Assembly: GCF_001697225.1 (NCBI RefSeq)
Contig: NZ_CP014671.1
Location: 3,162,001 to 3,226,000 of the forward strand
Length of the DNA stretch: 64,000 nt
From: Immundisolibacter cernigliae
GTDB lineage: Bacteria; Pseudomonadota; Gammaproteobacteria; Immundisolibacterales; Immundisolibacteraceae
Direction of reading: 5' to 3'
How positions within the stretch are numbered: position 1 is the stretch's first letter; each line of letters opens with the position of its first letter. Shown here in pieces: positions 40,708-45,222 of the stretch. A program made the translations under genes and the position numbers. A model generated the notes under the pieces. That model was not told the DNA's origin. It did not search any database and saw nothing but the letters and a program-made list of their open reading frames with translations.

Positions 40708-41637
40708 GTGCGCATCGGCATCGTCGGGGCTGGCGGCATCGGCTGCCTGCTGGGTGCGCGTCTCGCCGCCACCGGTCAGGCCAAAGTGCTGCTGCTGGCG
40801 CGCGGTGAGCATGCGGCGCGCCTGGCCGAGCAGGGTCTGGTTCTGGACTTCAATGGCGTGCGGGAAACGCACTGCCTGCCCGTGATCGACACCGCGAACG
40901 AGGCTGCGCTCGGCCAGCTTGCCGGCTGCGACTGGCTGCTGTTTGCCTGCAAGAGCCAGCACACCCGTCGCCTCGCCGAGCAGCTGAAGCCATACGTGAG
41001 TGCCGACTGCCGGTTGGGCTCGCTGCAAAACGGCGTCGACAACGAGCCGATCCTGGCCGAGGTGTTCGAGCGGCCGGTGATGGGCGGCCTGATGCGCAAG
41101 TTTTTCGCCCACATCACTGCCCCTGGCGAGGTGGAAGTGCGCGGCGTGCTGGAGGCTGTGCTGGGTGACTATCCGACCGGCTGCGGCCGCGAAACGACGG
41201 CCATGGTCGAACTGCTGCGCCAGGCCGGCATCACCGTTTACGCGAGCGAGGACATCCGCCGCGAACTGTGGCGAAAGCTGGTCCTGAACAACGGCTGCAA
41301 TCCGCTGGCGGCGGTGACCTTCCTGGACACCCAGCGCATGGCGAATGACCCCGACATGGCCTGGGTGATGCGCAACCTGATGCGCGAGGCCGGCGCCGCG
41401 GCGGCAGCCGACGAGGTCGAGTTCAGCCCGCACGAACTGGAAGCCGTATTCCAGTGGATCAAGGGCATCGACCCCATCACGCCTTCCATGCAGGCCGATG
41501 CGCAGCGCGGCAAGCCGCTGGAGCTGGATGGCATCACCGGAGCCATCCTGCGCCGGGCGGGGCTGCTGGGCATCGAGGTGCCGGTCACGGCCACGCTGCA
41601 CCACATTCTGCTGGGCAAGTACGGCAGTTCGGACTGA
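40708..41637 (+). CDS. Ketopantoate reductase family protein
   Basis: A 309-residue NADP-dependent dehydrogenase with an N-terminal Rossmann fold (MRIGIVGAGGIGCLLGARL) and a C-terminal all-helical domain with catalytic Lys in WRKLVLNNGCNPLAAV near residue 190. The PanE/ApbA family reduces 2-dehydropantoate for CoA synthesis, but many paralogues act on other 2-oxo acids, so no symbol is assigned. The start is GTG, 3 bp after fdxA. Confidence 0.88.
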   Translation: MRIGIVGAGGIGCLLGARLAATGQAKVLLLARGEHAARLAEQGLVLDFNGVRETHCLPVIDTANEAALGQLAGCDWLLFACKSQHTRRLAEQLKPYVSADCRLGSLQNGVDNEPILAEVFERPVMGGLMRKFFAHITAPGEVEVRGVLEAVLGDYPTGCGRETTAMVELLRQAGITVYASEDIRRELWRKLVLNNGCNPLAAVTFLDTQRMANDPDMAWVMRNLMREAGAAAAADEVEFSPHELEAVFQWIKGIDPITPSMQADAQRGKPLELDGITGAILRRAGLLGIEVPVTATLHHILLGKYGSSD

Positions 41638-41713
41638 GCCTGCCGCGCGGGCGCGCGGCATATGTAGCCAGCGCTTCAGGCCGGCAAGATCTGCGAATGA
41701 CTTCCTTCGAGCG

Positions 41714-42319
41714 TCAACTCATCTGTGCGCGCAACCGCGCCTGCAGCGGGCTTGAACGCGGAAAATGCGCCAGCAGGAATTCCATCTGGTCGGCCAGGAT
41801 GCGCCGCCCGCGCAGGTAGACGTACTCGGCGTGGGTGGGCACGAACGGGATCGCCAGCAGCTGCATGCCGGCCTGCTCGGGCGTGCGGTTGGCCTTGTGG
41901 TTGTTGCAGCGCTTGCATGCGGTGACCACGTTCGCCCAGGTATCGGCGCCCTTTGCGCTCAGCGGACGCACATGGTCTCGCGACAGGTCGCGTGACAGGA
42001 AGTGTTGGCCGCAGTAAAGGCAGGTGTGGCCGTCGCGCTTGAACAGCGCCGGGTTGTTCAGCGGCGGGGAGTACACCTCGCGGCTGCGGCGCAGCGCCGA
42101 CTGGTCGCCTGACGTGGCGATGATGGAATTGACCTCCACCACGCTGCGCTGGCCGCTGGCGGCGTTCATGCCGCCATGCACCCGGTACAGCGGCGTGCCG
42201 CAGGTGTAGGCCACGTGGCCAAAGTGGTACAGGCGCACCGCGGTCTGGTAATCCACCCATTCGAGCGGCATTCCGGACACGTCCGTGCGCAGGACCTGTT
42301 GAGCAAGCTGCTGTGTCAT
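41714..42319 (-). CDS. HNH endonuclease
   Basis: A 201-residue protein. The HNH core lies at about residues 115-170: CLYCGQHF (zinc Cys), LSRDHVRPLSAKG with the catalytic His, WANVVTACKRCNNHKANRT. This pattern is typical of stand-alone housekeeping HNH nucleases found across proteobacteria, of unknown role. The ATG at 42319 starts MTQQLAQQVLRTD. It is divergent from the RuBisCO-like gene across 167 bp with no obvious shared function. Confidence 0.88.
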   Translation of the reverse strand: MTQQLAQQVLRTDVSGMPLEWVDYQTAVRLYHFGHVAYTCGTPLYRVHGGMNAASGQRSVVEVNSIIATSGDQSALRRSREVYSPPLNNPALFKRDGHTCLYCGQHFLSRDLSRDHVRPLSAKGADTWANVVTACKRCNNHKANRTPEQAGMQLLAIPFVPTHAEYVYLRGRRILADQMEFLLAHFPRSSPLQARLRAQMS

Positions 42320-42486
42320 GTGCGTCCCCGTCGGTGCGCGCACCGACGCCAAAAACGGCCATCCATCAAGCTTGGACCGCGATTGTGTAACCGGTATTTC
42401 GGCACGCGGCAAGCGGTGATGATGGCGGGGTCGCAGTTGGAGCGGCTGGGATAGAATTCCCAGCCCCCCCTGCAAGCCGAGTTTCA

Positions 42487-43710
42487 ATGTCCGCCACTGT
42501 TCGTCGGCTTGCCGATGCCAACGCTCGCTTGCACGTCACTGCGGCGTCAGATCAGCTATCGGTATCGACGCCGGCCAGCGCGACACAGGCCGGTCTGCGT
42601 GTGGATGGCCGACTGGGCGTGCACTACGCGCTGAATCTGGCTGCCGGTGAGGACGCGGCTGGCAAGGCCGCTCTGATAGGGCTCGAACAAACGGTCGAGC
42701 TGCCGCGGTCGCTGCTGACGGCGGAGTTGGCCGAGCGCTTCGCCGGACGGGTCGAGGCGGTGCAACAGACCGGGCCGCGGCGCGCACGGGTGGTGCTGTC
42801 GTACAGTCTGGACGCCATTGGCGCGGACCTGCCGCAGTGCCTGAACCTGCTGTTCGGAAACATTTCCCTGAAGCCGGGAATTCGCGTGGTCGACCTGGAA
42901 TGGCCGGCCGCGCTGGTGACTGCGCTGGGTGGTCCGGGACATGGCATCGCCGGCCTGCGCAGGCTGACCGGGGTGAGCGGTCGTGCCCTGCTGTGCACCG
43001 CGCTCAAGCCCATGGGCCTGTCGGCGACAGAACTGGCCTCGTGCTGCGAGGCCTTCGCCCGCGGCGGGATCGACATCATCAAGGACGACCACGGCCTTGC
43101 CGACCAGCCGGCGGCGCCGTTCGCCGAGCGTCTGGCGCGCTGTCAGGAGGCGGTGACGCGCGCGAATGCCGCCACCGGCCGGCACAGCCAATACTTCCCG
43201 AACGTGACCGCACCGGCCGCGCTGCTGGCGCAGCGTCTGGCGGCGGCGCGCGAAGCCGGCTGCCTTGGCGTTCTGATCAGCCCGTGGCTGGTCGGCCTGG
43301 ACACGCTGCGCCTGATCCGCGACCAGTACGGCCTGGCCATCCTCGCGCATCCGGCGCTGACCGGCAGTCTGTTCGGACGCGGCGCCGGCATGGCGCCGCA
43401 GCTGGTGCTGGGCGATCTGTTCCGTCTGGCCGGTGCCGATGCGGTCATCTACCCGAACGCCGGCGGGCGTTTCGATTTTTCAGCCGCGACCTGTGCGCGC
43501 ATCAACGACCACCTGCGTCGGCCGCTGGGCACGCTGCGGCCCAGCCTGCCGGCGCCGGCAGGTGGCATGGACGTCGCGCGCGCCGGGCAGTGGGTACGAC
43601 GTTACGGGCCCGACACGCTGCTGCTGATCGGCGGCAGCCTGTATGCGCAAGGCGACTTGCAACGCGGCGCGGCTGCCCTGCGCGCAGTCGTGGAAGGCTT
43701 GGGCTCATGA
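42487..43710 (+). CDS. RuBisCO-like protein (type IV large-chain homologue)
   Basis: A 407-residue relative of the RuBisCO large subunit. The N-terminal domain covers about 1-140 and the TIM barrel 150-400. TALKPMGLS near residue 174 keeps the active-site Lys, and GIDIIKDDHGLADQ has the carbamate-type Lys at 199 followed by Asp-Asp-His instead of the Asp-x-Asp-Glu of true RuBisCO. Loop 6 (KxGKLEGE in RuBisCO) is missing. So carbon fixation is not expected. In Rhodospirillum rubrum such a protein isomerises methylthioribulose 1-phosphate, and a cupin enzyme acts next; the gene here overlaps a cupin gene in the same way (ATGA). Confidence 0.9.
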   Translation: MSATVRRLADANARLHVTAASDQLSVSTPASATQAGLRVDGRLGVHYALNLAAGEDAAGKAALIGLEQTVELPRSLLTAELAERFAGRVEAVQQTGPRRARVVLSYSLDAIGADLPQCLNLLFGNISLKPGIRVVDLEWPAALVTALGGPGHGIAGLRRLTGVSGRALLCTALKPMGLSATELASCCEAFARGGIDIIKDDHGLADQPAAPFAERLARCQEAVTRANAATGRHSQYFPNVTAPAALLAQRLAAAREAGCLGVLISPWLVGLDTLRLIRDQYGLAILAHPALTGSLFGRGAGMAPQLVLGDLFRLAGADAVIYPNAGGRFDFSAATCARINDHLRRPLGTLRPSLPAPAGGMDVARAGQWVRRYGPDTLLLIGGSLYAQGDLQRGAAALRAVVEGLGS

Positions 43711-44168
43711 GCGGCGCCGATTCGCACGTCGTGCATGGCGCCGGTTTCGAGTGGCCGGCCGTGGCCTTGCGTGAGTACAAGAACGATGGCAGCCCGCACC
43801 GGGACATCACCCGCCGCACGCTGCTGGGCGAGGCGCCGGGCGAGCAGGCGCTCGATGCCCTGGTGCGCTATTTCGAGATCAAGGCGGGCGGCTATTCCAC
43901 GCTTGAACGCCACCAGCACCCGCATGCGGTGGTGATTCTGCGCGGGCGGGGGCAAGTGATTCTGGGCGAGCGGGTCGAGTCCGTGGCCGCCTTCGATTGC
44001 GTGTACGTGGCACCGCAGTGCTTTCATCAGTTCCTGGCCACGGCCGGCGAGGAACTCGGCTTCCTGTGCGTGGTCAGCCGCGAGCGCGACCGGCCGTTGC
44101 TGCCAACGCCGGCAGAACTGGCTCGGCTGCGGGCCGTGCCGGCGGTGGCGCGGCTGCTGAGGGTCTGA
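43707..44168 (+). CDS. Cupin-domain protein coupled to the RuBisCO-like protein
   Basis: A 153-residue single-domain cupin. The first cupin motif gives the metal-binding His pair in ERHQHPHAVVILRG (residues ~65-78), and the second is VYVAPQCFHQFLAT near 100, with the third His. The usual Glu of motif 1 is not evident. It overlaps the RuBisCO-like stop by four bases, so the two are made together. By comparison with R. rubrum it may be a methylthioxylulose 5-phosphate methylsulfurylase, which yields 1-deoxyxylulose 5-phosphate; this is inference. A hairpin terminator follows. Confidence 0.8.
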   Translation: MSGADSHVVHGAGFEWPAVALREYKNDGSPHRDITRRTLLGEAPGEQALDALVRYFEIKAGGYSTLERHQHPHAVVILRGRGQVILGERVESVAAFDCVYVAPQCFHQFLATAGEELGFLCVVSRERDRPLLPTPAELARLRAVPAVARLLRV

Positions 44169-44200
44169 GCGATGCCGGCTTGCGCTGAACGCCGGTCAAC

Positions 44201-44236
44201 AAAAAAGCCCGCCGACATGAGCTGCCGGCGGGCTTT
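44201..44236. terminator. Bidirectional rho-independent terminator
   Basis: 11-bp stem AAAGCCCGCCG/CGGCGGGCTTT around an 11-base loop. Read on the minus strand it is followed by six T, ending the CsgG/SH3 gene; on the plus strand TTTCCTT follows, ending the cupin gene. It lies between the two convergent genes. Confidence 0.88.
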
Positions 44237-44271
44237 CCTTGTGCGCGGCGCAATGCGCCGCGCGGGTCCGA

Positions 44272-45222
44272 TCAGCGGGTGATGTAGTCGCCGTGTATCC
44301 AGCCAGCGCGGCCGTTGGCTTCGACACCCCACCAGGCGCCCTGCTTTTCGCCGTTGGGCGACACCGGCGTGCCCTTGGGCACCAGCATGACCACCGGCGA
44401 CTGTGTCGACGGGCCGGAGCGCATGTTCACATCCGACAGCGTCATGTAGCCGGAAGCTGAGGGCCGGGTGGCCGCCGGTTGGGTTACCTGCACCTGCGCC
44501 ACCAGTTTGTTGTGGGCGTCCAGGAAGGCCGCTGAGACGATCTTGCCGATATCGGTGCTGGCATACGCGCCGCCACCGGCGCCGACCAGACCACCGAATG
44601 CCAGGCCGCCGAAGCCCAGGTCGCGCTTGCTGGCGCTGCCCTCGGCGGCGGCTTCCTGCTCACCGGTACGCACGTTGGTCAGGAACAGCGTGACCTGCGA
44701 CTCCATGTTGGTCCACTTGATGCCACCGGCGATGGCGCCACCGATGCCCGGAATCAGGGCACCCAGCCCGGCGCCGCCGCCGCCGGCGTTGGAATCCTTG
44801 AACACCACGTTGGGCGTGATCAGGAAATCGGCCGCCTTCATCTGGCCGGCGCCCATGTTGCTGCCGCTTTGCAGGTCCCCACCGGCGGCCATGGCCCGCT
44901 CGCGCTGCATGGCCTGACTGGCCTGGCCGCGGTCGACCACGCGGAAGCAGCCGCTCTGCGCCATCATGATGCGCAGCAGCGGGATCGGGCTGGTCAGGCC
45001 GGCCTGCGCCAGCATCGGGTTGTCCTGCTCGATCAGCGCGGCGGTACCGATGGGCGTGGCGCAGCGGGTCAGCTGGGGTGCCGCGCCCTGCGCGCCAGCC
45101 GCACCGGCCGACCCGCTGACCATGCTGCCGCCGCTGCCGAGCTGCGTCTGGGTGGAGGCGCAGCCGGCGAGGGTCACGGCAACCAGGCCGGCCAAGCTGG
45201 AGATGAGGTTTTTATTGAACAT
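44272..45222 (-). CDS. CsgG-like lipoprotein with C-terminal SH3 domain
   Basis: A 316-residue lipoprotein. The signal peptide ends in LAGC near residue 21. Residues about 50-235 resemble the CsgG/curli-assembly and peptidoglycan-linked lipoprotein family (CFRVVDRGQASQAMQRER, then KAADFLITPNVVFKDS and a long Gly-rich stretch). The last 60 residues form an SH3b domain (VNMRSGPSTQSPVVMLVP, GWIHGDYITR), likely to bind peptidoglycan. GGGAGC precedes the ATG. Function unknown; curli genes are not nearby. Confidence 0.8.
   Translation of the reverse strand: MFNKNLISSLAGLVAVTLAGCASTQTQLGSGGSMVSGSAGAAGAQGAAPQLTRCATPIGTAALIEQDNPMLAQAGLTSPIPLLRIMMAQSGCFRVVDRGQASQAMQRERAMAAGGDLQSGSNMGAGQMKAADFLITPNVVFKDSNAGGGGAGLGALIPGIGGAIAGGIKWTNMESQVTLFLTNVRTGEQEAAAEGSASKRDLGFGGLAFGGLVGAGGGAYASTDIGKIVSAAFLDAHNKLVAQVQVTQPAATRPSASGYMTLSDVNMRSGPSTQSPVVMLVPKGTPVSPNGEKQGAWWGVEANGRAGWIHGDYITR

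Follow-up and report, generated by a model that had tools for sequence, protein, structure and literature searches.

The RuBisCO-like protein (RLP) gene of Immundisolibacter cernigliae and the cupin gene overlapping it are predicted from their sequences to recycle MTA from polyamine synthesis into methanethiol and the isoprenoid precursor DXP, a reading to which we give a probability of about 0.9. The window analysed comprises bases 3162001–3226000 (64,000 nucleotides) of the 3.24-Mb single-contig genome. The prediction is based on the genes themselves, homology, phylogenetic place, fold, conserved residues and gene content, from which substrates, products, coupling and the use of a metal and a thiol are deduced. 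Homology, tree, fold and gene content give good support to a function like that of the Rhodospirillum rubrum enzymes, as proposed in an earlier note on this DNA; the same note's idea that this might be a compact form of the pathway, or a new one, lacks such support. The window pair is a known pathway and a known gene layout in a new host, and is mostly ordinary.

The RLP–cupin unit and its conserved residues

The following features were located on the forward strand (window positions):

42487..43710, +, RLP gene, 407 aa; predicted 5-methylthioribulose-1-phosphate 1,3-isomerase (DeepYkr/RLP1 type)
43006..43008, +, RLP Lys174 codon; equivalent of the RuBisCO active-site lysine, invariant in the RLP alignment
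43081..43092, +, RLP Lys199-Asp200-Asp201-His202 codons; carbamate lysine and metal ligands, His replacing the RuBisCO Glu
43707..43710, +, ATGA stop/start overlap of RLP and cupin genes, 4 nt; putative site of translational coupling
43707..44168, +, cupin gene, 153 aa; predicted 1-methylthioxylulose-5-phosphate methylsulfurylase
43905..43925, +, cupin E67-x-H69-x-H71-x-H73 motif; putative metal site
44025..44027, +, cupin His107 in the second cupin motif; invariant
44067..44069, +, cupin Cys121; invariant, candidate catalytic thiol

The ORF coordinates confirmed that the stop codon of the RLP gene overlaps the cupin start, four nucleotides being common to both genes. The same −4 overlap was present in two further Immundisolibacter genomes (loci L003 and L004/L032) and is thus not a matter of chance, and we infer that RLP and cupin are translationally coupled via the ATGA. 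A search for a sigma-70 promoter-like site at the pair found none, and an Rfam search of positions 41500–45000 gave no match. Between the cupin gene and a convergent CsgG/SH3-domain gene lies an inverted repeat (AAAGCCCGCCG...CGGCGGGCTTT, 44205–44236), possibly a terminator common to the two. No second RuBisCO-family gene was found in the whole genome, the RLP gene being the only one.

The RLP matched Pfam RuBisCO_large with 78.3 bits (cut-off 30.1). Alignment bore out the positions previously assigned to the active-site lysine (174) and the carbamate-type lysine (199), as well as the lack of loop 6, the corresponding stretch of RuBisCO being occupied by YPNAGGRF. The Asp-Asp-His reading was likewise correct, but the Asp-x-Asp-Glu with which it had been contrasted was not, as the true RuBisCOs in the alignment read KDDE; the metal motif therefore differs in one residue, His for Glu (KDDH for KDDE). 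With KDDH in place of KDDE, and YPNAGGRF instead of loop 6 with its lysine, membership among the RuBisCO carboxylases was rejected. K174, K199, D200, D201 and H202 were invariant across 32 aligned RLPs and present in the solved structure 3qfw as well. Since KDDH is common to 3qfw and nearly all relatives examined, it marks the RLP family and is its normal motif, not a peculiarity of the window.

By sequence, profile and fold alike, the best match of the RLP was 3qfw, deposited as 'Rubisco-like protein from Rhodopseudomonas palustris' (best PDB match, E 1.4e-76), on which the RLP model (pLDDT 90.9) superimposed with a Z score of 46.4 and an rmsd of 1.8 over 348 residues. The cupin matched Pfam Cupin_2 with 36.5 bits (cut-off 27.2), and its best solved relatives were 3ibm, 3jzv (Rru_A2000 of R. 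rubrum) and 3kgz. Rru_A2000, identified as the MTXu-5P sulfurylase in R. rubrum (PMC4958253), was matched by phmmer with E 1.5e-37, and 51.9% of 135 aligned columns are identical. When 40 cupins, comprising those of the RLP loci and the solved relatives including Rru_A2000, were aligned, Glu67, His69, His71, His73, His107 and Cys121 were invariant in all 40.

The predicted route and its supply in the genome

In the proposed route, MTA from spermidine synthesis, probably once deaminated to methylthioinosine, would be converted to MTR-1-P by an MtnP-family phosphorylase, and MTR-1-P to MTRu-1-P by MtnA, both enzymes being encoded outside the window. The RLP would then shift the carbonyl group of MTRu-1-P, yielding 1-methylthioxylulose-5-P, with Mg2+ presumably held by carbamylated Lys199 and Asp201/His202, and the metal-binding cupin, together with a thiol such as glutathione, would take off the methylthio group to leave DXP and methanethiol. 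DXP could enter isoprenoid synthesis via Dxr, and methanethiol could be returned to methionine by O-acetylhomoserine sulfhydrylase.

It had been remarked earlier that no mtn genes lie near the pair; this is true for the window, and the mtn genes sit elsewhere in the genome. When the genome was searched for mtnP, mtnK and mtnA, an MtnP-family phosphorylase and MtnA were found and MtnK was not. The phosphorylase gene (genome coordinates 868360–869091) scored best as an S-methyl-5'-thioinosine phosphorylase (PRK09136; 327.9 bits, cut-off 223) and fell just under the cut-off of the MTAP model (268.9 against 274.85 bits), and it has genes for spermidine synthase (speE) and pyruvoyl-dependent arginine decarboxylase no more than a few kb away (862500–872500). 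MtnA is encoded at 2678661–2679635 (422 bits, cut-off 279), and two O-acetylhomoserine sulfhydrylases scored above the cut-off. Dxs and Dxr are both present, and with Dxs this genome has a source of DXP independent of the shunt. The genome is thus predicted to supply the source of MTA, the steps of entry and sinks for the products, to which entry through methylthioinosine would add the need for an MTA deaminase. A FucA-like class II aldolase (2476938–2477453 of the genome), under all curated cut-offs, could be of the Ald2 type and belong to a parallel DHAP shunt.

Three other readings were weighed against MTA recycling. The two chemical steps might be unchanged and the main substrate be another 5-deoxypentose, e.g. 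5-deoxyribulose-1-P from 5'-deoxyadenosine, on which the RLP reaction alone would formally yield DXP. According to two reports, 5-deoxyribose is salvaged in other bacteria by a kinase, an isomerase and an aldolase, and the DHAP shunt takes both MTA and 5'-deoxyadenosine (PMC6079011, PMC12632272). However, a dedicated, overlapping and sometimes fused cupin of the methylsulfurylase type is sensible only for the removal of a methylthio group, and we regard this reading as improbable. It is very improbable that the RLP acts as DK-MTP-1P enolase (MtnW/YkrW) in oxygen-dependent methionine salvage, with the cupin resembling acireductone dioxygenase (ARD): ARD likewise has a cupin fold and the MtnW models were the second-best family matches of the RLP, but their scores of 181.7 and 137.8 bits were far under the curated cut-offs (409 and 513.6, respectively), so that membership was rejected. 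Moreover, the nearest structure is 3qfw and not an MtnW, the RLP carries KDDH, the cupin is related to Rru_A2000, and a genome search for ARD (MtnD) gave no match. A different sugar-phosphate isomerase/lyase pair with no relation to MTA, conceivable as RLPs have several functions, is also very improbable in view of the close kinship to characterised pairs, the supply route in the genome and the score of 87.5 bits against OiaX (3-oxo-isoapionate-4-P decarboxylase; curated cut-off 700), a family that was rejected for the RLP.

Known pairs and the phylogeny of the RLP family

The layout of the pair was reported in 2016 (PMC4958253) and 2018 (PMC5893883) for Nitrococcus, Halorhodospira, R. palustris and others, the later study counting at least 25 species. 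For RLP1 and its cupin in R. palustris (RPA2169/RPA2170), gene deletions were combined with metabolite tracing and an in vitro assay of RLP1: the enzyme converts MTRu-1-P to MTXu-5-P with a kcat of 1.3 per second, and in vivo it acts together with RPA2170 (PMC5893883). We take 3qfw to be this RLP1 (RPA2169), because RLP2 was deposited separately (2qyg) and 3qfw falls in the cupin-linked clade described below. The window pair resembles RPA2169/RPA2170 in having neighbouring genes (by locus number in R. palustris), in RLP clade, KDDH motif and cupin family; in contrast, RLP identity is ∼40%, and RuBisCOs, a Photo-type RLP2 and the DHAP shunt are further found in R. palustris. With Rru_A1998/Rru_A2000 of the R. 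rubrum MTA-isoprenoid shunt it shares a 52% identical cupin with matching invariant E/H/H/H/H/C residues, and a genome that encodes MtnA along with an MtnP-family enzyme; the differences are the 4-nt overlap of the window genes and a phosphorylase that fits the methylthioinosine model best. The nearest orthologous pairs outside Immundisolibacter were those of Nitrococcus, Alkalilimnicola, other Ectothiorhodospiraceae and Gemmatimonadota (49–59% RLP identity), with the cupin directly downstream of the RLP as in the window; their genes overlap by up to 14 nt or leave a short gap and, unlike in the window, the ATGA overlap is rare.

A 90-row RLP tree, constructed without MtnW and the R. rubrum RLP (Rru_A1998), divided the family into two halves. 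The cupin-linked half (support 98/95) contained the window RLP and 3qfw along with 35 further rows, of which 31 have a cupin; of the 47 rows making up the sister half (98/92), 44 lacked a cupin of the same type in the DNA examined. The window RLP thus fell on the same side as 3qfw, and forcing it into the transketolase-linked group was rejected (p-AU 1.3e-7). At 80 public-genome loci a cupin was present in the DNA examined in 33 (mostly adjacent), a gene for a transketolase C half lay upstream in 31, and none had both; the Fisher p for these counts is small but overstates independence, because related loci have common ancestry. The partner beside the RLP, be it cupin, fused cupin or split transketolase, tracks RLP phylogeny.

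The flanking DNA examined at the 33 cupin-bearing loci held mtnA, mtnP or mtnK beside the RLP in no case, and short RLP–cupin spacings or overlaps were common among the loci compared. As the layout is, in addition, already published, the pair is not new in kind; the genes for forming and isomerising MTR-1-P exist in the genome and the bare pair is usual in relatives, which speaks against both a compact shunt and a new pathway. RLPs encoded on plasmids (∼34–44% identical to the window RLP) were seen in Ensifer, Rhizobium, Shinella and Vibrio nigripulchritudo, and in Pararhizobium the plasmid match coincides in part with an annotated transketolase C-terminal region as well.

Fused proteins and the transketolase-linked branch

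RLP and cupin were found fused in one ORF (523–573 aa) in several gammaproteobacterial genera, in a second family and in a Nitrospirae MAG, as follows:

G051:C1:442737-444305 (L007/L153), fused RLP–cupin ORF of genome G051, 523 aa
L154–L158, L160 (1387-3084) and L050, further fused RLP–cupin loci

The G051 fusion had near-full-length matches in five further genomes of the same family (three genera); the ORF is 565 aa long in G086, which belongs to a different family, and 573 aa in the Nitrospirae MAG. In G051 the RLP motif is KDDQ instead of KDDH. Folding of a fused RLP–cupin without an alignment gave a pLDDT of 33, and the model was set aside. In G051, a single contig of 99% completeness, no Dxs match exceeded 51.5 bits, and Dxr, MtnA, an MtnP-family match and MetY are present; the shunt could be the sole DXP source of this genome.

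RLPs of the sister clade were encoded directly downstream of a split transketolase (∼314 + 335 aa) at L065, L070, L083, L088 and ∼27 further loci, none of which has a cupin. The C half of the split transketolase also resembles Dxs (199.7 bits). Some of these operons add mtnK and mtnA, the order mtnK-mtnA-TkN-TkC-rlp being seen in Clostridium ljungdahlii and partly in Anaerosolibacter and a Lokiarchaeota MAG. In C. ljungdahlii, where MtnK and MtnA exceed their cut-offs, an apparent ribose-type ABC transporter lies upstream. No description of an RLP linked to a transketolase and the methylthioribose pathway was found in the open-access literature, which is weak evidence of novelty, and a broader open-access search, at the level of titles and the opening lines of abstracts, returned none of an RLP–transketolase pathway. 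With slightly less than even confidence, we suggest that this second, apparently undescribed RLP branch passes its product to the upstream split transketolase/Dxs-like enzyme and that the family also comprises a fused branch with a Dxs-less genome, the window representing the plain two-gene state. The transketolase–RLP operons can include methylthioribose kinase (MtnK), MtnA and a ribose-type transporter, as in C. ljungdahlii and partly in Anaerosolibacter and the Lokiarchaeota MAG.

The fused RLP–cupin, the Dxs-less fusion genome and the transketolase-linked clade are more interesting than the window pair, and with the partner gene tracking RLP phylogeny the fate of the RLP product becomes testable lineage by lineage. 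Immundisolibacter, a genus that includes a PAH-degrading soil bacterium, joins the bacteria predicted to make methanethiol and DXP from MTA without oxygen chemistry.
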